This document shows positions 6,502 through 54,519 of a stretch of 64,000 bases of DNA, piece by piece. The stretch's first letter is position 1, and every line of letters begins with the position of its first letter. This DNA is from Nitrospira sp. (GTDB lineage: Bacteria > Nitrospirota > Nitrospiria > Nitrospirales > Nitrospiraceae), in NCBI GenBank assembly GCA_024760545.1, contig CP060501.1:1215501-1279500 (forward strand), in the 5' to 3' direction. Both the position numbers and the translations under genes were made by a program. The notes under the pieces were generated by a model that did no database searches, was not told the origin of the DNA, and worked only from the letters and a program-made list of their open reading frames with translations.

Positions 6502-7917
6502 ATGGCAGAATCCAACTATGACGTTGCAGTGATCGGCGCAGGGCCCGGCGGCTACGCGGCGGCCTTTCAAGCATCTGATCTCGGATTGCGCACGGCATTG
6601 ATTGAGCAGGACCCGCAGTTGGGCGGCACCTGTCTGTTGCGGGGATGTATTCCGTCGAAAGCGTTGCTGCACGCTGCCCGTCTCCTCACCGATGCGGAGG
6701 AAGCGGACGCGTGGGGCATCCACTTCGACAAGCCGCGCCTGGACCTCGCAGCGTTACGCGGACGTTTGCAGTCGATCGTCGGCAAACTCAGCAAAGGCGT
6801 GCAGACCTTGGCAAACACTCGCAAGGTAGACGTCATTCAAGGCAAAGCTTCGTTCAAAAACTCGAAGACACTACTGCTGTCCGGCCCGGATGGGACGCGC
6901 GATCTGTCGTTCGCCCATGCCATCCTCGCCACCGGCTCGCAGCCGGCTATTCCCACATCCCTCAGGCTCGACGATCCGCGTGTAATGGATTCCACCGGCA
7001 TGCTCGGCGTGCCGGATGTCCCCGCCCGTCTGCTGGTCGTCGGAGGAGGCTACATCGGGTTAGAGTTGGGAACCTTCTACCAAGCGCTCGGATCGGCCGT
7101 GACGATCGTCGAAACGCTGCCGCGTCTCTTGGCCGGCACCGATCCGGATCTCGTGCGGCCGCTGCAACAACGTATGCATCGCCGCTTCAAAGCGATCAGG
7201 CTGAACACCACGGTCGAGAAGCTGGAGACGCGAGATGAGGGAGTGGCTGCGACCTTGACGGGTTCCGAGGGAATGAGCACCGAGATCTTCGATCGCGTGC
7301 TCATTGCCGTGGGACGAAAACCGAATACGCAACAACTTGGGCTCGAACGGACAAGGATCGAGATCTCACCGAAGGGTTTCGTGCAGGTCGATCGGCAGAT
7401 GCGCACGGCCGAGCCGACCATCTTCGCGATCGGCGACGTGGCGGGAGAGCCGATGCTCGCCCACAAAGCGACGCATGAAGGGCTGATCGCCGCCAGAGTG
7501 ATTGCCGGCCGCCAGGCAGCCTTTGATGCCGCCGCGATTCCGGCCGTCGTCTTCACCGATCCAGAAATCGCTTGGTGCGGGCTTACGGAAGAAGGGGCGA
7601 AAGCGGCCGGGCAAGCGGTGAAGATCGCGCGGTTTCCCTGGGCGGCAAGCGGCCGCGCCGCGACGCTGGGCAGGACGGAAGGACTCACGAAGCTTATCCT
7701 CGATCCTGAATCCGGCCGTGTGCTCGGAGTTGGGCTCTGCGGTGTCGGCGCGGGAGAGCTCATTTCAGAGGGCGTCCTGGCCATTGAGATGGGGGCGCTC
7801 GCCGAAGATCTCGCCGCCTCGATTCATCCGCATCCGACGTTGAGCGAGACGGTCATGGAGGCGGCTGAATCGTTCCACGGATCGCCGACACATCTCTTCA
7901 TTCCCAAACGGTCCTAG
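6502..7917 (+). CDS. lpdA: dihydrolipoyl dehydrogenase (E3)
   Basis: The FAD flavoenzyme reoxidises dihydrolipoamide with NAD+. The 471-residue protein shows the FAD-binding GAGPGGYAAA near the N terminus (11-20), the redox disulfide in GGTCLLRGCIPSK (about 41-53), a second Rossmann motif GGGYIGLELG (about 179-188) and the C-terminal active-site HPHPTLSE. The start follows GGGAGG with a suitable gap. It is separated from E2 by 84 bp and from the following lipoate ligase by one base, so it probably also serves the lipoylation branch of the same operon. Confidence 0.95.
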   Translation: MAESNYDVAVIGAGPGGYAAAFQASDLGLRTALIEQDPQLGGTCLLRGCIPSKALLHAARLLTDAEEADAWGIHFDKPRLDLAALRGRLQSIVGKLSKGVQTLANTRKVDVIQGKASFKNSKTLLLSGPDGTRDLSFAHAILATGSQPAIPTSLRLDDPRVMDSTGMLGVPDVPARLLVVGGGYIGLELGTFYQALGSAVTIVETLPRLLAGTDPDLVRPLQQRMHRRFKAIRLNTTVEKLETRDEGVAATLTGSEGMSTEIFDRVLIAVGRKPNTQQLGLERTRIEISPKGFVQVDRQMRTAEPTIFAIGDVAGEPMLAHKATHEGLIAARVIAGRQAAFDAAAIPAVVFTDPEIAWCGLTEEGAKAAGQAVKIARFPWAASGRAATLGRTEGLTKLILDPESGRVLGVGLCGVGAGELISEGVLAIEMGALAEDLAASIHPHPTLSETVMEAAESFHGSPTHLFIPKRS

Positions 7918-7918
7918 C

Positions 7919-8638
7919 ATGCGTGCGCTCCGTTTGCTCGATCTAACCCTCCCCTTTCCCGTTGAGAATCTTGCGCTCGATGAGGCCTTACTGGATGAAC
8001 TGGATGAGCGGGGCGGGGATCCCGTGCTCCGGTTTTGGGAGAGCAGCCGTCACTTTGTTGTGCTGGGTCGCGCCTCTCGATTAATCGACGAGGTTGACCT
8101 AGCCGCCTGCCAAGGGGACGGCATCCCTATCTTGCGGCGCGCGAGCGGCGGGGGGACTGTTTTGCAGGGACCGGGATGCCTCTCGTATGCCTTCGTGCTG
8201 CCGCTCGATCTGCATCCTGAGCTCGCGACTATTCGCACCACGAATCGATTCATTCTGGAACGGATCGCCACCGTACTGCGTCGATGGGAGCCTGCCACGA
8301 CATTCCGAGGCATCAGCGACCTCGCCATCGGCGGGATGAAAATTTCCGGCAACGCGCAACGGCGAACGAGGAAAGCGCTGCTCTTTCATGGCACCATCCT
8401 GTATGACATGCACGCGGATCTCATCGCACGATATCTAAAGCAGCCTCTGCGACAACCGGACTACCGTTCGGATCGATCCCATGGCACATTCCTTCGGACG
8501 ATCAACGTTCCGTCGAACACCATCAAGCAGGCCATTGCCGCTGCCTGGGACGCGGAGTCGACAGGCGACTTGTGGCCCTCCGCCCGCATGCCGCACACCA
8601 TCGCGGCCGTCCTTGCGCGAAGTCCGGAAGAATCATAG
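7919..8638 (+). CDS. lipoate-protein ligase A family protein
   Basis: The 239-residue product belongs to the biotin/lipoyl ligase (BPL/LplA/LipB) fold, which transfers lipoate or octanoate to lipoyl domains. Visible landmarks are VLGR (the lipoyl-adenylate loop), RRASGGGTV (the RR.sGGG.v signature) and GMKISGNAQRR with the conserved lysine after IGG. It starts one base after the E3 stop without its own good ribosome site, implying translational coupling. Context argues for E2 as substrate. It lacks the C-terminal accessory domain of E. coli LplA, so it may be an LipM/LipL-like transferase; sequence alone does not decide. Confidence 0.85.
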   Translation: MRALRLLDLTLPFPVENLALDEALLDELDERGGDPVLRFWESSRHFVVLGRASRLIDEVDLAACQGDGIPILRRASGGGTVLQGPGCLSYAFVLPLDLHPELATIRTTNRFILERIATVLRRWEPATTFRGISDLAIGGMKISGNAQRRTRKALLFHGTILYDMHADLIARYLKQPLRQPDYRSDRSHGTFLRTINVPSNTIKQAIAAAWDAESTGDLWPSARMPHTIAAVLARSPEES

Positions 8639-8698
8639 AGCGATCCAGGCAATACACGAAACTGTCGAGACGGCCATTTCTGTCACCGGAGGTATCCC

Positions 8699-9064
8699 AT
8701 GAAATTTCTGCTCCTGGTTCACCACAATGAAACCATGTTCAACAGGATCCCCGAAGACACACGGAAGGACATGCTCGCGGAATCAATCCAGCTCTGCCAC
8801 CAACTCCACGACAAGGCGCAGTACGTCCATGCCTCACCGTTACAACCAGAGGCCACCGCAGCGGTCGTGCAGGTGCGCGACGGCAAACAGATGGTGACTG
8901 ACGGGCCGTTCATGGAAACGAAAGAGCAGCTCGCCGGATATTTTCTCATTACGGCTGACGACTTGGATTCGGCCGTTCGTATCGCCACGCAAATACCCGG
9001 AGCGCGTATCGGTACGGTCGAGGTGCGGCCGGTCAGAGAGATCTCGGGTCTGCCGAATGAATAG
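8699..9064 (+). CDS. YCII/DGPF-family protein
   Basis: The 121-residue cytosolic protein has the YCII fold and the TDGPF-ETKE signature in its middle (VTDGPFMETKEQLAGYF). Such DGPF proteins are commonly encoded beside ECF42-type sigma factors, but none lies here. A perfect GGAGG precedes the ATG. It is the closest intact relative of the remnant at 2160-2243, and two further DGPF genes occur at 26713 and 38089. The biochemical role is unknown; the fold is related to muconolactone isomerase-type ferredoxin-like proteins. Confidence 0.85.
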   Translation: MKFLLLVHHNETMFNRIPEDTRKDMLAESIQLCHQLHDKAQYVHASPLQPEATAAVVQVRDGKQMVTDGPFMETKEQLAGYFLITADDLDSAVRIATQIPGARIGTVEVRPVREISGLPNE

Positions 9065-43968: not shown

Positions 43969-46900
43969 CTACGAGGCGCTTGTGCCGTTCTTCTTTGACA
44001 GGGCGATCAGTTTCGCGGTGGCTTGACCGTAGTGTTGATAGGCGCCCCATGTCGACCCACTCATAAGGATAGCTGCTCTGGCCTTCGATAGAGAGCTCCC
44101 AAGATCATTGCCGGACAGCGCTTCCGTATAAAAGACCTTCGCAAACTCTAATGCCGCTGCGTCATCCACAGGCCAACCGGTCCCAATGTAGTTCTGGACG
44201 CCTCGCTCAAAAAAAGCTTGGGCCAACCCCGCAAGGCTTCGATTCGATTCCTGCAGCGTAAAGGGCTTCCCGGATCGAACGACGCCGGAGAAGCAGGCGT
44301 TGGCAAAAATCAGGCGCGGCACGTGCCGCGCTCGAAACACATCCCTCGCGGACAGCACGTTCTCTTTGCCGAAAATCCATCCGCTCTTGGAAGGATTTTT
44401 TTCGTCGAAGTCGCCATGCCCCGAGTAATGAATCAAATCGAACTCCTCGCTCAGGATCAGCGCAAGCAGTTCGACCGGATCACATTCATTCGCCCCGATC
44501 CGTTGCTCGATTGAGATATTCAGGCCCTGTCTCTCCTTCATGCTTTGCAGAACTTTCACCACAGTGCGACCTTCCTCCCGCGCTCCCGGCAATTGCAGGT
44601 CGACCTCCGGAGCCGGGTCAGCGATGACCAGCACGCGCAGGCTGTCGGCAGTCGTCGTCGCAACCAGTCCCGGCGGGCCAGACAAGGTGGTGCGGAATTG
44701 CCGCGTCAGTTGCCGGCCAGGCCCATAAAAAATGGCTTTCCCGTGTTGTTCGAATGCAGCCATCTCCCACGGGAATGCCGCTGTGGAACGGTCAACCATG
44801 AGGGTGAGCGGCGTGATATCGACCATATCCTGGAAGTCTTCCGGCATGAGGTAGCTGTGTAAGAGCTTTCCGTATTTCTGCTGATCCTCCAAACTTCGAG
44901 ACTCCTTCAGGAGTTCGGCCGCTCCTTCTGCATACGAGGATTGAATCGTGATTTCTCGGACTGGAATAACCGCCTGTTCCCTGATGGCTGAGAACCGGAA
45001 CACGTCATGGTCGCGTTCGATCGTAATCCGGCTCCCCTTCATCGTATCCTGGTTGGCCGGCTTCGATTGTTGTCTGCGATGCGTACGCTTCGGCAACTGC
45101 CGCTCCATCACGCGCAATTTCAAGCCATCGTTCTGGTTCTGTGAGATTCTATTCAACAGCTCCTTGATCACCTTCAAGCGATTTGTATCGTACTCCACGA
45201 TACGCAGGGTCTCGAGATGCCCTTGGTCCTTCAGTTGTCTGAGCGCTGACCCTACGCCTTGCAGCATGCCTTCGATCGCCTGCTCCAAGGACAAATTACC
45301 TTCCCCCGAGCCGACTACAACCGTGGCGAATTCACGCCATCCGAGCGCAGTGACGCCATAGGTGACATTGGCGAAGAGGAGATCCAGGTCCTCCCGATTG
45401 AAACGCCCGTATTCGCCCATGCCGGCGAGGATCACGGCATTGGCAGCAAGAGATTTGCGCACATTGGGGATGAGAAATACTTCGCCGAGCCCGCCACCGA
45501 TGATGCCGCGTTTGACGGCCTTGGAAATCCAGAACTCCAGCGCCTGGTCCAGCGCTCCAACCGCACGCACGGGTGGTACCCCTCTGTAGTGCCCGACCAC
45601 GACCGCCGTCGTCTTGATATCGCGAATGTCACCCTGAACGATTTCAACGTTTAGGGAGATAGGCTTCTCTCTTTGTGTCTTCTTTTTCCGCACTGCGTAG
45701 GTTTCGGCCGGGACTGAATCCGTCACCGCCCGGACCTTTGAAGAGGCCTGCACCATGACAGCTTGCCTGAGCAATCGCTCTGCCCGACGGCGCTCTGCGG
45801 CGCTGCTTTGGTTGGCATTCGTCGCTTCCGCGATTTGGCGAATCTCCTCGGCATCCTGTCGATCTTGCACGGCACGAACACGCGAGGACGGCACCGAGCG
45901 GACTGCGCGGGCGGTGACTGGTTCCGTCGCCAATACGCCGGTCTTGCCGGTTCGCAGGATCTCATCGATGGCCTCAAGCACCTGTTCATGCTTCTGCAGG
46001 TCACCATGGATCTCGTCGACATAATATGTCGGCACACCGGGAAGCAGCCCCAGTGCGTGCGTGACGCGACCATCGCCTTTCAAGGTGATGTCAAACTCGA
46101 ACATGCCGGGCGCATCGATCCTTACCCCGCACACCGTTTCCTGATTGCAACCGGCGATATAGGTCATCCGCTCCGGATCGGTCGTCGCCGACACATCGAG
46201 GTCCGTGTGGAACTTGCGCGCCCGATTGAGGTGGGAGGTCAGGATGGGATACCGGCCCCAAGTGCCTCGATCGTAGAGACTTTGTTCTGGGACAGAGAGC
46301 TTTGCGTATGCAGGGAGTAGCTGGTAACTCCCCACGAATCCATTCAGGACGTCTAGCACTTCGTCCAAGTCGTGTCGTAGATCTGCCGCTGCCAACCACT
46401 TCACAAGCTTGTCTTTCGCCACCATCGCTTGCGCAATGGCATACGAACCGTAGTTCGGCGTGCCCAGCATAATGAGGCGACCGCCCTGTACCTTCTTCGG
46501 CTCCGACATGGCTTTCCACGTCTTGGGATACAGCCGAATAAAATTCCGGGACACGAGACCTCCCATGGAATGGGCGACAAGGTGGACCGGTTGGTCTTTG
46601 AACTTCGATTCCACGAGACCTTTCAAGCCTTCCGCCGCCTGATCCAGATCTTTTCGCCAGTCGTAGGCAAAGGGCTCAACGTTCCAGTTCGCTTTCAGCC
46701 ACAAGATCGCCTCTGCATAGCTATCTTTGTCGAGCCCACTGGGATAGACACGCAAGGTTGAATCGGCTTCCCGCGAACCGTCCGGAGCTAGTTGTAGCTT
46801 TTTGATTCCCCCTCCCATGAGCCGCAAGAAACTGACCCACACGGTGTCATCATCGCCATCTTCCGTGACGGTCAACTCGGACCCCATGATGCCGGGGATA

Positions 46901-47142
46901 AAGATGATATTGCCTCGCAGTACGTCGCGCTTTTGTCGAGCCGATCTCGCACGATCGGCTAGACGTTGCAGCCGTTCGAGCTTCTCGGACCCGAAGTGCT
47001 CCCTCAATGCCTGGTCCGATACTGTTCTAGACTTGCTTCGGCGCGCGGAACCGGAGAGCTGAGTTTCAAACTCCTCCCAATCCATGTCATGGATCCGACG
47101 GTCCGGCTCGCGCTGCATGATCCGTTTCTGTCTTATGCTCAT
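43969..47142 (-). CDS. three-part protein: alpha/beta hydrolase + M17-N-like domain + CHAT protease
   Basis: The 1057-residue cytosolic protein has three recognisable parts. Residues about 78-390 are an alpha/beta hydrolase of the lipase/LCAT type, with FIPGIMGSEL near the N terminus and nucleophile Ser192 in AHSMGG. Residues about 490-690 resemble the N-terminal macro-like domain of M17 leucyl aminopeptidases (VEIVQGDIRDIKTTAVVVGH, LGEVFLIPN, VILAGMGEYG). The C-terminal third (about 770-1057) is a CHAT protease: His909 in HYSGHGD and Cys950 in FANACFSG form the caspase-type dyad. It follows the caspase gene by 96 bp on the same strand. It probably cleaves a target protein and/or membrane lipid when triggered. 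Confidence 0.85.
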   Translation of the reverse strand: MSIRQKRIMQREPDRRIHDMDWEEFETQLSGSARRSKSRTVSDQALREHFGSEKLERLQRLADRARSARQKRDVLRGNIIFIPGIMGSELTVTEDGDDDTVWVSFLRLMGGGIKKLQLAPDGSREADSTLRVYPSGLDKDSYAEAILWLKANWNVEPFAYDWRKDLDQAAEGLKGLVESKFKDQPVHLVAHSMGGLVSRNFIRLYPKTWKAMSEPKKVQGGRLIMLGTPNYGSYAIAQAMVAKDKLVKWLAAADLRHDLDEVLDVLNGFVGSYQLLPAYAKLSVPEQSLYDRGTWGRYPILTSHLNRARKFHTDLDVSATTDPERMTYIAGCNQETVCGVRIDAPGMFEFDITLKGDGRVTHALGLLPGVPTYYVDEIHGDLQKHEQVLEAIDEILRTGKTGVLATEPVTARAVRSVPSSRVRAVQDRQDAEEIRQIAEATNANQSSAAERRRAERLLRQAVMVQASSKVRAVTDSVPAETYAVRKKKTQREKPISLNVEIVQGDIRDIKTTAVVVGHYRGVPPVRAVGALDQALEFWISKAVKRGIIGGGLGEVFLIPNVRKSLAANAVILAGMGEYGRFNREDLDLLFANVTYGVTALGWREFATVVVGSGEGNLSLEQAIEGMLQGVGSALRQLKDQGHLETLRIVEYDTNRLKVIKELLNRISQNQNDGLKLRVMERQLPKRTHRRQQSKPANQDTMKGSRITIERDHDVFRFSAIREQAVIPVREITIQSSYAEGAAELLKESRSLEDQQKYGKLLHSYLMPEDFQDMVDITPLTLMVDRSTAAFPWEMAAFEQHGKAIFYGPGRQLTRQFRTTLSGPPGLVATTTADSLRVLVIADPAPEVDLQLPGAREEGRTVVKVLQSMKERQGLNISIEQRIGANECDPVELLALILSEEFDLIHYSGHGDFDEKNPSKSGWIFGKENVLSARDVFRARHVPRLIFANACFSGVVRSGKPFTLQESNRSLAGLAQAFFERGVQNYIGTGWPVDDAAALEFAKVFYTEALSGNDLGSSLSKARAAILMSGSTWGAYQHYGQATAKLIALSKKNGTSAS

Positions 47143-47238: not shown

Positions 47239-48075
47239 CTAACTCAGAAAGAATCGATCGAACGACGTGCGTTGCCCTTCGAGCTGGGGTACTTGATCGA
47301 AGTCGTTCTTCTTCAGTTTCGCGACGGTACGTTGATGCAGCTCTCGGTAGGTCAGCTTGCCCTCGGCCTCTTTGATCGACTCGACGAGATAATAGGTCAA
47401 GGCCCCGTTATACGAGCCACCGATGTGGGCATCGGCGGACGTTTGCGTATCCCGGCACCCGGTGATGAGCAGCTCTTGGATATCGGCATTGACAATATCG
47501 CTCTTCCGCTTACGCCCGCGAGGCGCTTTTCCTAGTTTCCCGCTAACCGTCCCACGCAGTTTTCGACCAGACTCGGTGCCCATGAGATCCAACGGGCAAG
47601 GAAGGAATCGCTCTTTCCTGGGAGCATTCGGCGGGATAATGGCACGCGTGATAGTGCCGGAATGGCAGCAGTCCATAATAACAGTCAGACTCACGCCCTT
47701 GCGAAGCTTGTTCAAGGTCTTTCGGAGCCAATCATCCCTGAATGGATCGTTCCAATCTAGATCAGTGGGACATAAGATCTCGTCGCGCTTATCCGCTTCG
47801 TCACCGTTATCATCCGGCACGTTCGACCCATGCCCCGAATAATGGAGCAGCAGAACATCGCCCTTCTTCCCGCCTCCAATCAGCTTTTTAATGGCGGCTT
47901 GCATCGCCTTCTTCGTCGCCTTCAGATCGGTGAGCGTCGTCATGTCCTTTTCGGTAAATCCATAGTAGGTTTTCAGCGCCTCACTCAAATTTGTCACGTC
48001 ATTGACACACCCACTAAGATCCGCCCCGGGGATTTGGTATTTGTTGATCCCGATCAGCACCGCTCGCTTTGCCAT
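47239..48075 (-). CDS. caspase-like (C14) peptidase
   Basis: The 278-residue protein is a compact caspase/metacaspase-type domain with no extra module. The fold signature is AVLIGINKY at the N terminus; the dyad is His82 in HYSGHGS and Cys137 in MDCCHSG. The Asp-rich loop DDNGDEADKRDEILCPTD follows the His. Metacaspases cut after Lys/Arg, usually on activation. ATG at 48075 follows AAAGGAG. It lies in the block between the NDT/TPR/SLOG gene and the CHAT gene. Confidence 0.9.
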   Translation of the reverse strand: MAKRAVLIGINKYQIPGADLSGCVNDVTNLSEALKTYYGFTEKDMTTLTDLKATKKAMQAAIKKLIGGGKKGDVLLLHYSGHGSNVPDDNGDEADKRDEILCPTDLDWNDPFRDDWLRKTLNKLRKGVSLTVIMDCCHSGTITRAIIPPNAPRKERFLPCPLDLMGTESGRKLRGTVSGKLGKAPRGRKRKSDIVNADIQELLITGCRDTQTSADAHIGGSYNGALTYYLVESIKEAEGKLTYRELHQRTVAKLKKNDFDQVPQLEGQRTSFDRFFLS

Positions 48076-48432
48076 AACAACTCCTTTCTGTGGTGGTGTC
48101 GACTAATCAGGCCATGGCTACAAACGTGCCCACCAATCTTGTTGCCTTGGCCCTCCTATCTGCGTGCAATGCGCGCAACAGATACGGGCAATGCCCGAAA
48201 GACGTGTTGACAATGCGCTGAGCAAACATCTTGCCACTCAGGATTTGGATGCTTCCACGGCACGATGTCATTGCTAGGGCGTATTCCGGCAGGAAGAATA
48301 CAGTATTTTCATGTTTCCGGATAGATCGGATGAGTCAGCGGAGGGCTATATGAGTGCTTGATCAAAACCGATGGAGAATCTAAACCGATACAGCACTGTA
48401 TCGAAATAGGCTAGGGTCGGTGTGCTCCCAAG
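48076..48432. other. intergenic spacer before the caspase gene
   Basis: This 357-bp spacer separates the NDT-TPR-SLOG gene from the caspase. It holds no supported gene; the only structure seen is the 18-bp inverted repeat annotated at 48386-48403. It probably contains a separate promoter for the caspase-CHAT pair, but no convincing -35/-10 pair was found. Confidence 0.5.
48386..48403. repeat. 18-bp inverted repeat after the NDT-TPR-SLOG gene
   Basis: CGATACAG-CA-CTGTATCG is a perfect inverted repeat around two bases, about 30 bp past the stop of the upstream gene and 310 bp before the caspase start. It may end the first transcript or serve as an operator for the second; AT content and lack of a T-run favour the operator reading. 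Confidence 0.4.
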
Positions 48433-50379
48433 CTACAGAGTCCGGCTATCGATCCAGGTCACCTGACCAGTCCGACGGTTCACTTCCTGATACATATGCG
48501 CTGTGCCACCACGGCCATCACCTCCACCACCGTCCCAGAGACAGACAAACTGAACCTTGTCGATGCCATAGGACAGGGCAGTATAGAGGAGCCAGAGGTT
48601 ACAGCGTTCATAGGGATCAGCATCTTTCGGAGGAGGGCCAAGACTTTCCGGAGTTGAGCGAACAGTCGCCATGAGCTTGGCTTTGGCCTTGTAATATCGC
48701 TCGCGCCACGATTCGCCGTGACAGACCACCGACTTCTGGATAAAAGTTGGTTCGTCGAATGGCTGGAGCCACTGAACCTTGACCCCTCGCTGCTGACAAG
48801 CCTCGGTAAAGAGCAGATCGCCGCCACACGCACCTTGCGTCAGAGCCAGGTCTTCCGGACCGGCGTCGAGGTTCTGCAAGGCCTCGGCAATCTTCTGAGC
48901 CGCAACCGGTTCTTTGGAGGCAGGAAACCGAGGCGGTTGCCGTCCCGGTTTATCGATCATGTGTCCGCTGAAGAGGAAAACCCGTCGCGGCGAAAACGGC
49001 GGGGTCGCTCGCCGGATCTCGGCCTCAACGATTGCCAGTGCGGCGGCGGTCTCCTCAGACCTGAATTCGAGATCGCGCAGCAGTTCCAACGTCTGCCGGG
49101 ATGAATCGAGCGCAAACCAGTCTCGGTCGGCAGCGGCCATCGCGGCGCGGTACTCACGAATCACTGTGTCCCTCGGGTTGACCAGGAGGCACACCTCGGC
49201 GTAGCTCGCCCGCGCCCAATAATCTTTCTTGTCTCGTTCTTGCGCCGTAAGGCTCGCCCATAGTACGCCGCCAATCAGGTTGTCGATCACGGTTCGGTTC
49301 GGTTGTCCGCCGAGATGCTCAAGCAGCAGATGCAGCGTCAGCGAATTGATGCCCGAGTAAAAGTGGGAAGGATCGGCAATGAACGCTTTGTGGTACGGCT
49401 CGATGGCTTGTTCGAGGCTCGCCTGCTCAGCCGCCGCCGCGGCACGCATCTGTGCGGGAGTGCTGTCGGGCCTGCGCCAACGCTGGACCCAGTTGTCCTT
49501 CTCCACTCGCCCCGCCAACGCCCAGACTTCTGAATCAGAGGGGTAATTCTCCGTGAGCTGACGCGTGTACTCCCGTGCCTCTTCGTAGCGGCCGAGTCGC
49601 CCCAGGCACACGGCTTTCTTCTCGCGGCTTGGCTTGTCCTCGGCATCGAGCTTTAGCGCCGACTCGAACTGCTCCAGCGCGAAATCGAACTGCCGTAGTT
49701 TGATCAGGCTATTCCCGGCAGCGCGGCGCGATTCTATCCACAGCGCCTGCGTCGGCGTTTCGTCGGCAAGCACCAGGATGTCGCCGACGTGGTTTCTCTG
49801 ACGCGCCACTTCCATCCGGCTCTTCCACGCCTCATAGGCCATGCTGAACTCGTTGCGCTTGGCGAGCAGGAGATCTCGCCACTGAGGCTCTTGCAAGTGA
49901 TCGAGCAGGGAATACACCGGGCTGACCTTGCGTCCCTGCCACGATTCCATTGTGGCCTTTACCATATTGGCCAATTTCGATCTCTCTAACTCCAAGGCCG
50001 CCGGGTCCGGTCCACGATCCTTGATGGAGTAGCGCAGTTTGCGATCGGTATAAAGGTCAAATGCCGTCGGCACCTGTCCGCCGCTGATCAGCACGACACC
50101 GCGTGCCCGCAGCGCATGTCTCACACCGAGCTCGTACCAGACATTGGGATTGTCAATCGTCAGATCAGCAACAACGAGGTCGGCAATGAGCAGCTCCTGG
50201 AACATATCGGGCAAAATCCCTCCGGCGCGCTGCTCTTCATCTGCCCGGAACACCTCCAGCCCCGCCGACTCCAACGCCGGCTTGATCAGCTCCGTATAGA
50301 CGCGATTGAAATCAATGTCGTTGCCTTGGCTGTCCTTCTTCACACCAAACGGCATCGCGACAAATGCATGGGGTTTCAT
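48433..50379 (-). CDS. NDT/TIR-like + TPR (TRAFs-binding) + SLOG-like protein
   Basis: The 648-residue cytosolic protein has three parts. Residues 1-120 resemble the nucleoside 2-deoxyribosyltransferase/TIR-like fold (FVAMPFG at 6-12, ADLVVADLT at 66-74, NPNVWYELG at 77-85 with the likely catalytic Glu83). Residues about 150-430 are TPR-like helices of the DUF4071 TRAFs-binding type. Residues about 465-640 resemble a SLOG (LOG/DprA-like) nucleotide-binding domain, with FSGHMID at 470 and GACGGD at 516. I chose ATG at 50379, which follows AGAGGA; an in-frame TTG at 50400 overlaps the SLATT stop. It may make and/or sense a nucleotide signal. Confidence 0.78.
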   Translation of the reverse strand: MKPHAFVAMPFGVKKDSQGNDIDFNRVYTELIKPALESAGLEVFRADEEQRAGGILPDMFQELLIADLVVADLTIDNPNVWYELGVRHALRARGVVLISGGQVPTAFDLYTDRKLRYSIKDRGPDPAALELERSKLANMVKATMESWQGRKVSPVYSLLDHLQEPQWRDLLLAKRNEFSMAYEAWKSRMEVARQRNHVGDILVLADETPTQALWIESRRAAGNSLIKLRQFDFALEQFESALKLDAEDKPSREKKAVCLGRLGRYEEAREYTRQLTENYPSDSEVWALAGRVEKDNWVQRWRRPDSTPAQMRAAAAAEQASLEQAIEPYHKAFIADPSHFYSGINSLTLHLLLEHLGGQPNRTVIDNLIGGVLWASLTAQERDKKDYWARASYAEVCLLVNPRDTVIREYRAAMAAADRDWFALDSSRQTLELLRDLEFRSEETAAALAIVEAEIRRATPPFSPRRVFLFSGHMIDKPGRQPPRFPASKEPVAAQKIAEALQNLDAGPEDLALTQGACGGDLLFTEACQQRGVKVQWLQPFDEPTFIQKSVVCHGESWRERYYKAKAKLMATVRSTPESLGPPPKDADPYERCNLWLLYTALSYGIDKVQFVCLWDGGGGDGRGGTAHMYQEVNRRTGQVTWIDSRTL

Positions 50380-50396
50380 ACACGTTCCTCTTCTGA

Positions 50397-50960
50397 TCAA
50401 TCCGTCTTACTTCGTCCTGCCACGGAGGAGGCACTCTCGTCCTTCTCCTTTTTTTCTTTCACCACCTGCGTCGTGTAAGTCTCGACCTCCTCACGGCTGA
50501 GCTCCTCGACTCGCGCGGCAAATCCCGGATAGGCCTGAACATGGCTCAGGTTCACGTAGGGTCCACTGAGCTGGAAGAACTGCCAGCCTTCGCTCTTGAG
50601 CGATTCGACCGTGCGCCGATAGTGGCGCCAGCGTTCGCCATAGTGAAAGAACTCTTCCACGGCGGCACTCAGCGCCACCACCAAACTGACCGCGAACGTG
50701 ATCATTTTGATCGCACCGTCGGCACCGTTGCCCAAGTTCAGACTGACCAGCGCCGGTACGATGACGCCCCCGATAATCGTCGTGAGCCGCAGAGTGTAAT
50801 ACCACCGGACAGAATCCCACGCCTTGTCTTCCATCCAAATGACCTGTTCCAGCCACCGCGCTCGAAGGAACTGTTTGTTCAGGTCCGGCAACTCCAGCGC
50901 CACAATGAGCTTGTTCATCTCGGCCCGCATGTGCTCATGGTCTTGCGGCTTTTTGAGCAT
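50397..50960 (-). CDS. SLATT-type two-helix membrane protein (DUF4231-like)
   Basis: The 187-residue protein has two adjacent hydrophobic helices (about 57-76 and 83-104) between a long helical N terminus and a charged C-terminal tail, the SLATT layout. The FFHYGERWRHYRRTVESLKSEGW segment after TM2 is the typical SLATT signature. SLATT proteins are predicted pore-forming effectors in nucleotide-signalled conflict systems. The ATG follows GAGG. It is the first gene of the minus-strand block and abuts the NDT-TPR-SLOG gene. Confidence 0.82.
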   Translation of the reverse strand: MLKKPQDHEHMRAEMNKLIVALELPDLNKQFLRARWLEQVIWMEDKAWDSVRWYYTLRLTTIIGGVIVPALVSLNLGNGADGAIKMITFAVSLVVALSAAVEEFFHYGERWRHYRRTVESLKSEGWQFFQLSGPYVNLSHVQAYPGFAARVEELSREEVETYTTQVVKEKKEKDESASSVAGRSKTD

Positions 50961-51814: not shown

Positions 51815-53347
51815 TTGAAGACCCTCGCCACGCTAGAACCTCTCACGACCAGACTCCTGGAAATTCAGCGTATCAACAGCGCTGCGTCGGTCCTTTCATG
51901 GGATCAGGAAACGTACATGCCTGCCGGTGGAGGCGAAGCGAGGGCTGAGCAGATCGCGGTGCTTCAGGGTTTGGCCCATCAGAAGCTCGTCTCCTCGGAG
52001 GTTCAGGACCTCCTGTCACAATGGGTGGATCCTGCGACCGGCCAGGCAGCCGACCAGGCCGGTGAAATCTGGGATGGGCCGTCGCGGTCGCTGTTGCGGG
52101 AGATATGGCGGGATTTCAGCCGTGCGAAGAAACTGCCGTCTGATTTCGTCGTGACACTGAGCCGCGAATGTTCCCTCGCGCAGCAAGTATGGGTCGAGGC
52201 GAAAGAACAAAACAAATTTTCCCTGTTCCTCCGGAATCTCCGGACCGTGCTCCAGCTCAAACGCGAAGAAGCGCACTATCTCGGCTATCAGGAGTCACCC
52301 TATGACGCGCTCTTGGACGTCTATGAACCGGGTGCGACCATTGCCGGCCTCCAGCCGGTATTTGCTGCGCTCAAATCCCGTCTGGTGCCGTTGCTGAAAC
52401 AAATCACTCAGAGCCGGGTTCACATCGATGACAATATCCTGAATCACTCCTACGATCAGGATCGGCAGCTGGAGTTCGGCCGACTGGTCCTGATCGCAAT
52501 GGGGTATGACTTCAAGCGGGGTCGATTGGATCTCTCGGCACATCCCTTCACCACCTCGTTCCATCCGACCGACGTACGTGTGACAACCCGCGTGCATGAA
52601 CATGAATTGCAGTCCTGCCTTTTCAGTTGTATCCACGAGGGTGGCCACGGGCTATACGATCAGGGCCTGGATCAACAGTACTTCGGCACGCCGCTGGGCG
52701 ATTCGGTTTCCCTCGGCATCCATGAGAGCCAATCCCGTCTCTGGGAAAATTGCGTGGGGCGATCCCGCCCCTTCTGGCGATTTTTTTATCCAATTCTGCA
52801 GCAAACCTTTCACCAGCAGCTGCAGGGAATCGATGTCGACCGGTTCTATGCCGCGATCAATCGTGTGAAACCGTCGTTGATTCGCGTGGAAGCCGATGAG
52901 CTAACCTACAATCTGCATATCATGCTGCGGTTCGAGATCGAGCGAGACCTCGTGGAAGACAAGACTCAACCGGACGATTTACCGGAGATCTGGAACGACA
53001 AGATGAAAGAATACTTGGGCCTCGTTCCGCCTTCCGAGGCCGAAGGGGTGTTGCAAGACGTGCACTGGTCGTTCGGCGCCTTCGGGTATTTTCCGACCTA
53101 TACCCTCGGGAATCTCTATGCCGTACAGTTCTTTGAGCAGGCCAAGCTGGAGATGCCCCATTTGGAGGATGAGATTGCGGCGGGGCGATTGATGATGTTG
53201 CGCCGGTGGCTCGAGCAAAAAATCCACCGTTGGGGCCGCATGTTCACACCGGAGCATCTTGCCGAACGGGTGACCGGTTCCACGGTAAGTCCTGGGCCTT
53301 TCCTGAAGTATGTGGAACAGAAGTACGGCGAACTCTACCAACTGTGA
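51815..53347 (+). CDS. M32 metallocarboxypeptidase (Taq type)
   Basis: The 510-residue zinc peptidase trims residues from peptide C termini. The catalytic HEGGH is at 274-278, followed by the M32 DQGLDQQYFGTPLGDSVSLGIHESQSR segment containing the downstream HES zinc ligand region, and IRVEADELTYNLHI, also typical. Start is TTG at 51815, five bases after GAAGGAGG; no nearer ATG fits. Its 3' end overlaps the convergent SocA-domain gene by 13 bp. Confidence 0.93.
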   Translation: MKTLATLEPLTTRLLEIQRINSAASVLSWDQETYMPAGGGEARAEQIAVLQGLAHQKLVSSEVQDLLSQWVDPATGQAADQAGEIWDGPSRSLLREIWRDFSRAKKLPSDFVVTLSRECSLAQQVWVEAKEQNKFSLFLRNLRTVLQLKREEAHYLGYQESPYDALLDVYEPGATIAGLQPVFAALKSRLVPLLKQITQSRVHIDDNILNHSYDQDRQLEFGRLVLIAMGYDFKRGRLDLSAHPFTTSFHPTDVRVTTRVHEHELQSCLFSCIHEGGHGLYDQGLDQQYFGTPLGDSVSLGIHESQSRLWENCVGRSRPFWRFFYPILQQTFHQQLQGIDVDRFYAAINRVKPSLIRVEADELTYNLHIMLRFEIERDLVEDKTQPDDLPEIWNDKMKEYLGLVPPSEAEGVLQDVHWSFGAFGYFPTYTLGNLYAVQFFEQAKLEMPHLEDEIAAGRLMMLRRWLEQKIHRWGRMFTPEHLAERVTGSTVSPGPFLKYVEQKYGELYQL

Positions 53348-53931
53348 ATGTCCACCGCCGGCCGGCTATCGTATCCCAGCGCGGCATTCAGCTTCGACAA
53401 GCTTGCCGTGGTCAAGGTAAATTCAGCCTGCACGTCGATCCGATGGGGTACCAGCAGAGTCGTATGGAAGACAATGTCTCGAATGGGGATCTTGAATTCC
53501 GGATCCTGCGGCGTACTGAGCTGGACTAATTCCACCGAGTTCGTAATCGTGCTGCTATCTTGAGGGCCATATGTGGTCACAACAGCATCGATAATATCTT
53601 TCACCTTCTCGTTGGCCTCTACCCCTTCGATCCCCTTTAACAACAAGGGAATCGCCTCGTCCTTGGCTTGATCCGACACGATGAAGTTTTCGACCCTTCC
53701 TTTCCTGCGAAGGGACGTCAGGTCGTTATCGAGATCTTTACTGAAGGCGCCATAGGCAAACCGAAAGAATTCAAAGTGGAATGCGCGCACGCCCTTGGCA
53801 AAGGTTTGGAGCTCGCAGAGAAAGCAGAGTTGCTGCAACTTGACATCGCTCAGTTGGCCGTGGCGTTCCGCAAGCTGCAGGACATACAGCAACAGCGCCC
53901 GGTCGACGGTAATCTGATTGGGTGTTCGCAA
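53335..53931 (-). CDS. SocA/Panacea-domain protein
   Basis: The product (198 residues from a TTG start at 53931 behind GGTGGAG) has the Panacea/SocA layout: DRALLLYVLQLAERHG, DVKLQQLCFLCEL, FEFFRFAYGAFSKDL. Panacea domains are antitoxin modules found beside toxins. No toxin gene is adjacent: the neighbours are the M32 peptidase (convergent, 13-bp overlap) and the divergent Fur gene. A longer frame to 54318 would overlap fur and is rejected. The C-terminal half (about 110-198) is beta-rich and has no partner that I can identify. Confidence 0.65.
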   Translation of the reverse strand: MRTPNQITVDRALLLYVLQLAERHGQLSDVKLQQLCFLCELQTFAKGVRAFHFEFFRFAYGAFSKDLDNDLTSLRRKGRVENFIVSDQAKDEAIPLLLKGIEGVEANEKVKDIIDAVVTTYGPQDSSTITNSVELVQLSTPQDPEFKIPIRDIVFHTTLLVPHRIDVQAEFTLTTASLSKLNAALGYDSRPAVDIHSW

Positions 53932-54081
53932 CGTCGCTCCACCAATGAGTTTGACGGCTTTACTATAGACAGCCGGAGAGCAGCCGTCAAAGGCAGCTGA
54001 ACTCCTGGATAAGTTCGTATGAAACACTCTTGACCGGCTGCTCCATTTCGTCTTTAATCCCGGTCTAGGAGGCGGAGTCTC

Positions 54082-54519
54082 ATGGCGATGTCCAAACATA
54101 CCAAAGAAATGGGAGTACTGAAGGACCATCTGGGGAAACACCAACTCAAGTTTACTCGGCAGCGTGAACTGATCCTGGATGCGTTTCTCAAGCAGGAGCA
54201 CATCACGGCCGAGGAGATGTACCACCAGCTGGCACGAAAAGATCCGCACCTGGGTTTGGCAACGATTTACCGCACGCTCAACCTGTTTTGTGAGGCCGGT
54301 CTGGCCCAGGCCCGGCACTTCGGCACGCAGACTCAGTACGACAACATCTCACACAAAGGCCATCACGACCATCTCATATGCACCGGCTGCGGGAAGATCG
54401 TCGAATTCGAGAACTGCGACATTGAGCGCCTGCAGGAAGAGGTTGCATCACGGAACGGCTTTACCATCCAAACTCACCGCCTGGAACTCTATGGTCTCTG
54501 TTCCCGCTGCCGTCATTGA
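54082..54519 (+). CDS. Fur-family metal-dependent regulator
   Basis: The 145-residue protein has the Fur winged helix (FTRQRELILDAFLK, HITAEEMYHQL, LGLATIYRTLNLF) and the metal-binding HHDHLICTGC-GKIVEF plus a C-terminal CSRC zinc site. Four cysteines (two CxxC) resemble Fur and PerR alike. It heads the iron-uptake block, which argues for Fur. AGGAGG lies before the ATG. Confidence 0.88.
   Translation: MAMSKHTKEMGVLKDHLGKHQLKFTRQRELILDAFLKQEHITAEEMYHQLARKDPHLGLATIYRTLNLFCEAGLAQARHFGTQTQYDNISHKGHHDHLICTGCGKIVEFENCDIERLQEEVASRNGFTIQTHRLELYGLCSRCRH

Follow-up and report, generated by a model that had tools for sequence, protein, structure and literature searches.

Why would a single bacterial protein join a lipase-type hydrolase to a cysteine protease? 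The question is raised by a gene in the window, a stretch of 64,000 nucleotides from Nitrospira sp. (contig CP060501.1). A preliminary description proposed that its 1057-residue product carries hydrolase, M17-N-like and CHAT protease domains, and that this single protein senses a signal and attacks both membrane and protein targets. The gene and its parts are as follows:

43969..47142, minus strand: hydrolase-M17N-CHAT protein, 1057 aa (open reading frame with ATG start at 47142 and stop at 43969)
45937..46920, minus strand: LCAT/lysosomal phospholipase A2-type alpha/beta hydrolase, residues 75-402, with Ser192, Asp357 and His379 (Pfam LCAT, fold, triad)
45664..45933, minus strand: Arg-rich linker, residues 404-493, the least conserved part of the protein (pLDDT, residue composition)
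45124..45666, minus strand: Peptidase_M17_N/macro-fold domain, residues 493-673 (Pfam, domain model)
44002..45045, minus strand: CHAT protease domain, residues ~700-1047, with His909 and Cys950 (Pfam, fold, dyad)

Three domains on one chain

Each of the three domains scores above its Pfam cut-off: LCAT at residues 151-241 (1.1e-8, 35.2 bits, cut-off 21), Peptidase_M17_N at residues 515-629 (3.7e-7, 30.5 bits, cut-off 23.4) and CHAT at residues 755-1039 (2.2e-28, 100 bits, cut-off 24). Together with the AlphaFold2 folds and the presence of all three domains in 60/60 aligned relatives, these matches bear out the proposed fusion. The alignment leaves out partial or frame-split relatives, such as L075, L087, L101, L011 and L012. 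Scanned with Pfam at E 0.001, all 36 family members examined match both CHAT and LCAT, and 27 of 36 reach M17_N. In G320, another genome of this species, the protein is 99.8% identical and the gene order unchanged, and relatives have the same domain order, which argues against an assembly or frame artefact; as all aligned relatives also keep the three domains, it is very improbable that misassembly joined them by chance. Hydrolase-M17N-CHAT is a family of proteins, not a chance join. A promoter and terminator scan was uninformative (2 promoters vs 3.1 expected; 10 terminators vs 6.8 expected).

Via its AlphaFold2 model, the hydrolase (residues 75-402) superposes on lysosomal phospholipase A2 (4x97) with Z 30.2 and rmsd 2.6 over 305 aligned residues. 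Lysosomal phospholipase A2 and LCAT are the nearest folds, and the T6SS phospholipase Tle4 is also near (Z 22.9). All share the fold and the Ser-Asp-His triad with the Nitrospira protein but, unlike them, its hydrolase is one module in a protease fusion. Ser192 lies in AHSMGG, as had been claimed, and we find its Asp and His partners in Asp357 and His379, the whole triad being invariant in 60/60 aligned proteins. The lipase-type assignment thus stands for the phospholipase-type fold and the conserved triad, and lipid cleavage itself is predicted. The AlphaFold2 model of residues ~700-1047 matches separase, Csx29 and SAVED-CHAT. The dyad named in the preliminary description falls in HYSGHG (His909) and FANACFSG (Cys950) and is present in 59/60 aligned proteins, the exception, L095, being unreadable there. 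As the catalytic residues are invariant, a degenerate hydrolase or protease is ruled out.

The macro-fold M17N domain is best known from aminopeptidases. Modelled alone with AlphaFold2 (pLDDT 92.6, pTM 0.89), residues 493-673 adopt the M17-N/macro fold that had been anticipated for residues 490-690. Via this model, a leucine-aminopeptidase N-domain (8pzm, Z 19.7) and a macro domain (1yd9, Z 19.4, rmsd 2.7, 170 aligned) are tied. A profile search of the region agrees with the M17-N half of the earlier assignment, as leucine aminopeptidases are the best PDB matches (7.2e-11 and weaker), and agrees less well with the macro half, the first macro protein appearing at 0.003. At E up to 1, the 1057-aa protein has no Pfam match to Macro (PF01661), which rules out a classical macro domain, or to the Peptidase_M17 catalytic domain, which rules out a leucine aminopeptidase; for comparison, the genuine aminopeptidase L063 scores 425 bits to Peptidase_M17. 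The N-terminal domain of PepA is therefore the counterpart by sequence and fold, but the M17 catalytic domain of PepA is missing here and CHAT comes after M17N instead. Conservation of the glycines G517, G574 and G576 is no proof of ligand binding, since ordinary leucine aminopeptidases can be aligned over the same stretches. The GDI aspartate is Asp in just 30/60 aligned proteins. Hydrolase-free M17N-CHAT proteins of ~1007 aa exist, and in M17N-CHAT-TPR-S proteins the M17N domain is detected by the family HMM and not by Pfam.

Ahead of M17N, the linker has pLDDT below 50 at residues 412-419 and 464-491 (AlphaFold2), and its position R415 is Arg in 50/60 aligned proteins. We regard this Arg-rich segment as a candidate cleavage region.

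A neighbouring caspase and its exchangeable partners

Upstream of the fusion, three further genes lie on the same strand:

47239..48075, minus strand: caspase (Peptidase_C14), 278 aa, His82 and Cys137, directly upstream of the fusion (Pfam 3.6e-35)
48433..50400, minus strand: protein with TIR-like N-domain, TPR-S and SLOG-like C-domain, 655 aa (Pfam TPR-S 7.1e-21)
50397..50960, minus strand: SLATT/DUF4231 membrane protein, 187 aa (Pfam DUF4231 2.7e-30; NCBIfam SLATT_1 1.5e-31)

The caspase's catalytic His and Cys are present in 38/38 compared caspases, and in the window copy an Arg/Lys-rich loop follows the catalytic Cys. Residues 30-122 of the 655-aa protein match a PADLOC TIR effector (1.9e-4); its SLOG-like label comes solely from the C-domain homologue at L093, which matches YAcAr below the threshold (1.8e-4, 21.7 bits, cut-off 28.2). 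The SLATT gene overlaps the TIR-like/TPR-S gene by 4 bp. Metabolic genes (M32 peptidase, O-methyltransferase, FKBP) flank the locus, and the site is set among housekeeping genes, outside any defence island. The earlier idea of a single protein attacking protein targets is supported in its conserved CHAT dyad and altered in another respect: the protein does not stand alone but has a caspase directly upstream. Given the caspase, TIR-like/TPR-S/SLOG-like and SLATT neighbours, its protein targets are more likely to belong to a proteolytic relay (the caspase partner and/or self-cleavage) than to general proteolysis.

How regular is this association? Of 61 loci, architectures were listed for all but L053, L066, L078 and L088 at contig ends; L069 and L079, duplicates of L038 and L046, were removed before the counts over 59 loci. 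In 18 of the 59, the fusion has a caspase gene upstream of it on the same strand, adjoining in 16, and a search with an HMM trained on nine of these caspases found no second caspase at any of the 59. No caspase is nearby in 41/59, seven of which have less than 750 bases upstream. Four caspase-free Nitrospira loci (G169, G200, G204, G288) have a caspase elsewhere in the genome; outside Nitrospira, the caspase was looked for at the locus only. Among 79 Nitrospira genomes, 26 have both caspase and family, 3 only the caspase, 4 only the family (G102, G402, G413, G414) and 46 lack both (Fisher p 1.5e-13, without correction for descent), the family being called at E 1e-20 or better, which takes in M17N-CHAT relatives matched in CHAT only. 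Presence across the genus is patchy (caspase 29/79, family 30/79), and 26 of the 30 family bearers have the caspase. This genome-wide co-occurrence removes part of the evidence against the explanation proposed below.

At the Nitrospira site the caspase is constant and its partner is this fusion, an M17N-CHAT-TPR-S protein, a giant form, a patatin or others. The caspase tree indicates partner exchange at this one site, with 9 changes vs a minimum of 3 and rough support: bootstraps are unsettled, the starred branches alone force fewer than 9 changes, the short L170 is omitted and L169, where a WD40 protein follows the caspase instead, is unclassed. Patatin phospholipases sit beside the same caspase at L044, L051, L162, L164 (fused to TPR-S) and L165 (a fragment), so two unrelated lipase folds accompany one caspase. 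Where no partner is recognised at the caspase site (G169, G200, G204, G398, G412), 5/5 genomes bear a ~30%-identity fusion elsewhere. TPR-S, which has a gene of its own in the window, forms part of a CHAT protein in 9/10 variant relatives scanned for it. NAD-type neighbours recur at family loci, namely SIR2-pYEATS (L031) and SLOG-TIR and TIR-NACHT (L055); STAND-type genes also occur, and some family copies are plasmid-borne. Unfused hydrolases have a protease nearby in 6/45 loci (L098-L148), and neither CHAT nor caspase was found around the other 39/45 scanned. A phage-borne gene was considered and set aside: one viral_contigs scan gave 1 relative in 17 stretches, matching partially (residues 163-268, 31% identity).

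A proposed cascade and its alternatives

We think it somewhat probable that the 1057-aa protein carries the effector of a conflict or cell-death module centred on the caspase, and that this module works by the following cascade. The N-terminal LCAT/lysosomal-PLA2-type domain would be a phospholipase effector, the C-terminal CHAT domain a regulated cysteine protease, and the macro-fold M17N a regulatory or ligand-sensing piece of an M17N-CHAT core. CHAT would be switched on by some trigger, perhaps a nucleotide derived from NAD that the TIR-like/TPR-S/SLOG-like neighbour makes or senses, and together with the caspase it would set off a short proteolytic relay. The relay would then unleash the phospholipase, perhaps via a cut in the Arg-rich linker, and the freed enzyme would damage the cell's own membrane, where the SLATT protein may act in parallel. 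Against this reading weigh the loci and genomes that have the family and no caspase nearby, the housekeeping setting of the Nitrospira site, the incomplete detection of M17N by Pfam, the unfused hydrolases with neither CHAT nor caspase around them and the WD40 partner at L169. A more specific version, which we hold only tentatively and consider unlikely as a whole, makes M17N the receptor for an NAD-derived nucleotide from the TIR/SLOG/SIR2-type neighbours, so that CHAT is switched on and CHAT or the caspase cuts the linker in the R415 region to free a membrane-destroying phospholipase. If this specific version is true, cell death by a proteolysis-released phospholipase would parallel gasdermin release, and the lipase and CHAT arms could be swapped around a constant caspase.

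The M17N domain could instead be an oligomerisation, scaffold or DNA-contacting module, roles for which the PepA N-domain is a precedent, with regulation coming from TPR-S or from partner proteins. This we take to be a real possibility, though we doubt it: the profile's preference for leucine aminopeptidases, the missing Pfam Macro match and the GDI aspartate kept in half of the alignment argue for it, while macro domains and the aminopeptidase N-domain are equally near in fold, and M17N accompanies CHAT even in proteins that lack the hydrolase, as expected of a regulator.

The metabolic flanks of the Nitrospira locus, and the many loci with no defence-like neighbour in the regions scanned, would suit a role outside defence and cell death, namely that of a housekeeping hydrolase of esters or lipoproteins that carries its own protease for quality control. 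We consider such a role improbable, as caspase and family are patchy in the genus, partners have been exchanged repeatedly at one site, the neighbours are of TIR, SLOG, SIR2, SLATT, STAND and caspase kinds, and there are plasmid copies. An exported, Tle4-like toxin against competitors or predators seems highly improbable; the hydrolase fold does resemble Tle4, but no secretion-system gene is present among the neighbours scanned, and both the caspase and the fusions to TPR-S suggest control inside the cell.

Relation to known caspase and CHAT systems

As relatives in other bacteria keep the domain order and the active sites, the Nitrospira protein appears to be an arm, so far undescribed, by which a bacterial cell-suicide or defence system attacks lipids under the control of a protease. 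Among the matches listed in our search of literature titles and abstract openings, with most subscription papers outside it, the CHAT, M17N and hydrolase fusion is undescribed, and a search with the same limit found no paper pairing a CHAT with a macro domain. Hydrolase-M17N-CHAT extends known caspase/CHAT systems as a variant. If the proposed cascade is true, a lipid-cleaving execution arm on one chain with its controlling protease joins the bacterial caspase/CHAT repertoire and M17N gains a testable role. The exchangeable partners beside a constant caspase offer a natural series on whether CHAT acts upstream of the caspase.

In SAVED-CHAT, too, CHAT is joined to another domain and has a partner caspase, and it reportedly acts with this prokaryotic caspase in type III CRISPR. 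The CHAT fold of SAVED-CHAT (structure 8tl0, Z 19.7) is common to the Nitrospira protein, and a partner caspase gene likewise adjoins the fusion. However, the Nitrospira protein has no SAVED match (Pfam, E up to 1) and carries M17N and a phospholipase-type domain instead; no Cas genes are present among the neighbours scanned. SAVED-CHAT is mentioned in the available part of PMC11417357. The CHAT fold is also shared with the Craspase TPR-CHAT protein Csx29 (Z ~19-21), but the Nitrospira protein has no TPR match; TPR-S is encoded by its own gene in the window and is fused at the C-terminus in variant relatives.

According to the available part of Kaur et al., 2020 (PMC7159879), VMAP-system caspase domains always occur with a neighbouring alpha/beta-hydrolase gene. 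In the VMAP/MoxR-vWA and EACC systems, as far as the available parts of PMC7159879 and of Kaur et al., 2021 (PMC8195603) describe them, caspase and alpha/beta hydrolase are paired and a constant caspase has variable partners, as here, whereas the Nitrospira hydrolase shares its chain with M17N and CHAT. The window caspase scores 60.5 bits against the EACC1 type (NF047832), below the cut-off of 140. The Borvo protein BovA is listed with a CHAT domain in the available part of PMC10952713. Its likeness to the Nitrospira protein is limited to part of CHAT and is not full length, with residues 881-1021 covering positions 527-662 of the 711-position PADLOC BovA profile (2.1e-8).

The three-domain chain and its relatives

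The fusion is a single open reading frame with three Pfam domains, each above its curated cut-off, confirming the hydrolase, M17-N-like domain and CHAT protease that the preliminary description had placed on one chain:

47142 down to 43969, minus strand: fusion ORF, 1057 aa
Residues 151-241: LCAT domain
Residues 515-629: Peptidase_M17_N domain (M17N)
Residues 755-1039: CHAT domain

In an alignment of 60 proteins (the window protein plus 59 distinct loci, among them the window's species-mate, L036), LCAT, M17N and CHAT were present in all. Ser192 does have its Asp and His partners, as the triad Ser192, Asp357 and His379 is kept in 60/60, and the CHAT dyad His909 and Cys950 is kept in 59, the remaining row, L095, being unreadable at those positions. 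Mean conservation was 0.48 for the hydrolase, 0.43 for M17N and 0.46 for CHAT, and 0.25 and 0.34 for the two linkers. When 36 family members were scanned singly by Pfam, CHAT and LCAT were found in 36/36 and M17_N in 27. As three domains and two catalytic sites are conserved across relatives, both enzymes appear, judging from sequence, to be kept by selection as one unit.

The fusion architecture is more than chance. Matches at E 1e-10 or better occur in 45 of 395 Nitrospirota genomes; they include full-length proteins of 75-81% identity in several congeners, a second full-length set at 30-33% identity, some of it in the same genus, and partial matches. In GTDB contigs a scan confirmed at least 219 relatives. 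Among the best 80 of these, which were retained, 32 start before residue 160 of the query and reach past residue 900, three named relatives (77-80% identity) are Nitrospira MAGs, and record titles include Nitrospira, Bryobacterales/Acidobacteria, Planctomyces, Desulfobacterales, Rhodocyclaceae, Gammaproteobacteria and Acidimicrobiia/Ilumatobacter. Plasmids gave 28 matching records, five of which (Rhizobium, two Paracoccus, Azotobacter, Ensifer) cover at least 80% of the query with all three domains present.

A full-length structure model built with 36 sequences had a mean pLDDT of 81 and a pTM of 0.49, so the placement of domains relative to each other is unreliable. Modelled residues 75-402 resemble lysosomal phospholipase A2 (4x97; Z 30.2, rmsd 2.6, 305 aligned), LCAT (Z 24.5-27.3) and Tle4, a type VI phospholipase (4r1d; Z 22.9), in fold. 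The modelled C-terminal part resembles separase (5fby; Z 23.8, 301 aligned), Csx29/TPR-CHAT (Z about 19-21), SAVED-CHAT (8tl0; Z 19.7, 185 aligned) and gingipain (Z 19.5).

The middle domain, modelled alone (pLDDT 92.6, pTM 0.89), does fold as M17-N or macro: by its model, two best matches are tied, 8pzm, which is the N-domain of leucine aminopeptidase (Z 19.7, rmsd 2.4, 177 aligned), and 1yd9, the macro domain of macroH2A1.1 (Z 19.4, rmsd 2.7, 170 aligned). In profile searches leucine aminopeptidases rank first (3jru, 7.2e-11; 7y1s, 3.6e-9) and a macro protein appears only at 0.003; the family's M17N HMM also matches a true leucine aminopeptidase, L063, at 3.8e-30 (Peptidase_M17, 1.6e-127). 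By these profiles the domain is M17N. Its conserved G517, G574 and G576 align with aminopeptidase glycines and thus are alone no argument for nucleotide binding.

The upstream caspase and its partners

On the minus strand of the window the SLATT gene comes first, then the TIR-like/TPR-S/SLOG-like gene; a gap of 357 bases separates the latter from the caspase gene, which the fusion follows after 96 bases. Caspase and fusion may form a separate transcript. Other features here are:

48076-48432, minus: the gap between the TPR-S and caspase genes, with two terminator-like hairpins
48433-50400, minus: 655-aa protein with TIR-like N-domain, TPR-S and SLOG-like C-domain; in other Nitrospira (e.g. L044, L061) the last is also encoded on its own, as a protein of about 200 aa close to the caspase
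53335-54318, minus: 327-aa ORF, no Pfam match, in NCBIfam only a hint of DarG (E 0.073)

Among 79 Nitrospira genomes, 29 have the caspase and 30 the fusion family (threshold E 1e-20, some matches covering the CHAT part only). Both occur in 26, the caspase alone in three (G151, G332 and G407, the last with a broken M17N-CHAT copy), and the family alone in four (G102, G402, G413, G414). The remaining 46 have neither; Fisher's test, with no correction for descent, gives p 1.5e-13. With an HMM derived from nine of the caspases next to fusions, we found the gene in 18 of the 59 distinct loci, each time upstream on the same strand; 16 are adjacent, with spacing from overlap (L091, longest possible start) to 222 bases, and two (L044, L071) lie 2.6-2.7 kb away. 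The other 41 loci had no caspase; in seven of these the upstream sequence is shorter than 750 bases. Because record titles put seven of the 18 outside Nitrospirota (L072, L083, L090, L091, L093, L097, L116), the link is not explained by common descent within the genus alone. In 38/38 aligned copies the caspase has its His and Cys. Nitrospira caspases have in common a loop rich in Arg and Lys that follows the catalytic Cys and takes a different form in several others; it may have a role in processing. In L158 the caspase is apparently broken by an in-frame TAG.

We surveyed the partner at 29 caspase loci. It is the fusion in 12 (for L165 as inferred from two G380 contigs), directly after the caspase in nine; L044 and L164 have a patatin-type gene in between, in L164 a TPR-S-patatin fusion. 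It is an M17N-CHAT protein of about 1007 aa in seven, a giant form in two and patatin alone in one (L162). In L169, where the caspase match is incomplete, a WD40-repeat protein (7124-8764) takes the CHAT partner's place, and L170 is too short to judge. Five loci had no recognised partner; all five genomes (G169, G200, G204, G398, G412) carry a fusion of about 30% identity elsewhere. Identity to the window's counterpart is 81-95% for the caspases at the remaining 28 loci but about 28-31%, within the CHAT part, for CHAT partners of different classes. In a tree of 28 caspase rows, 27 of them classed, the four partner classes require 9 changes, against a minimum of 3 and a shuffled mean of 13.2 (as low in 1/200), so the partners, as read from this tree, cluster but have been exchanged; the starred branches alone force fewer changes. 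In published accounts, a constant caspase with variable partners, as at this site, is a principle of EACC systems (PMC8195603), and a caspase paired with an alpha/beta hydrolase, as here, belongs to VMAP systems (PMC7159879).

Next to the same caspase lie genes for patatin-like phospholipases (L162:5127-6266, L044:10918-12063, L051:13306-14442, L164:10866-13151), alone or with a CHAT protein. The M17N-CHAT partner in L155 is apparently split over several ORFs.

Architecture variants

Larger relatives have about 1780-1900 aa, one 2407. In L051, L083 and L096, Pfam finds DUF7379, an LCAT-type hydrolase (slightly below cut-off in L096), CHAT and TPR-S, and the family HMM places M17N between hydrolase and CHAT. 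Nitrospira proteins of about 1007 aa are without the hydrolase; they have CHAT and TPR-S in 6/6 scanned (L060, L061, L062, L067, L068, L157) and an N-terminal M17N found by the family HMM, with no Pfam match at the limits used. Thus M17N-CHAT looks like the core, with the phospholipase a removable N-terminal part, and TPR-S is either fused or, as in the window, separately encoded.

Unfused hydrolases lie near a protease in 6 of 45 loci (51 loci, L098-L148, minus L101, which is cut, and five fused proteins); 39 do not. A caspase adjoins in L099, in L118 the neighbour is an amidase-caspase protein that matches CHAT weakly, and an NB-ARC-CHAT protein precedes the hydrolase in L117. CHAT-x-hydrolase runs occur in L122, L127 and L142 and, outside this set, in L065.

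Several single proteins were also observed. The 2407-aa relative (L096:6734-13957) has a weak N-terminal metallo-beta-lactamase-like match beside DUF7379 and TPR-S, and in a Planctomyces relative (L076:9791-15058) a C-terminal PLD-like PLDc_2 replaces TPR-S. A single protein of 1657 aa (L118:5049-10022) combines an N-acetylmuramoyl-alanine amidase domain and a caspase with a weak match to CHAT; a hydrolase of the same type comes after it. A protein of about 300 aa with no Pfam match lies between CHAT and hydrolase in split operons (L065:7783-8769, L142:9099-9992). The window's own genome has two other CHAT proteins off this site (G000:C1:4150723-4151517 and 1164787-1165584; frames 841 and 832 aa).

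Proposed mode of action

The preliminary description had pictured one protein that senses a signal and attacks membrane and protein targets; this stands in part, and the caspase partner must be added. The best-supported reading is a phospholipase effector under CHAT and, where present, caspase control in a conflict or cell-death module, which we class among known caspase/CHAT conflict systems, as a variant. CHAT may act before the caspase, by analogy with SAVED-CHAT, whose CHAT-then-caspase direction we take as the model for this order. We would guess that the Arg-rich linker between hydrolase and M17N (residues 404-493) is cleaved, because two stretches have low model confidence, Arg content is 16% vs 7% elsewhere, and Arg415 is present in 50/60 aligned proteins. 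Lipid hydrolysis as the output is hinted at most strongly by the presence of two types of lipase with unrelated folds, LCAT-type and patatin, beside the same caspase. The neighbours, among them the NAD-related SIR2-pYEATS in L031 and SLOG-TIR and TIR-NACHT in L055, suggest an NAD-derived nucleotide as the trigger.
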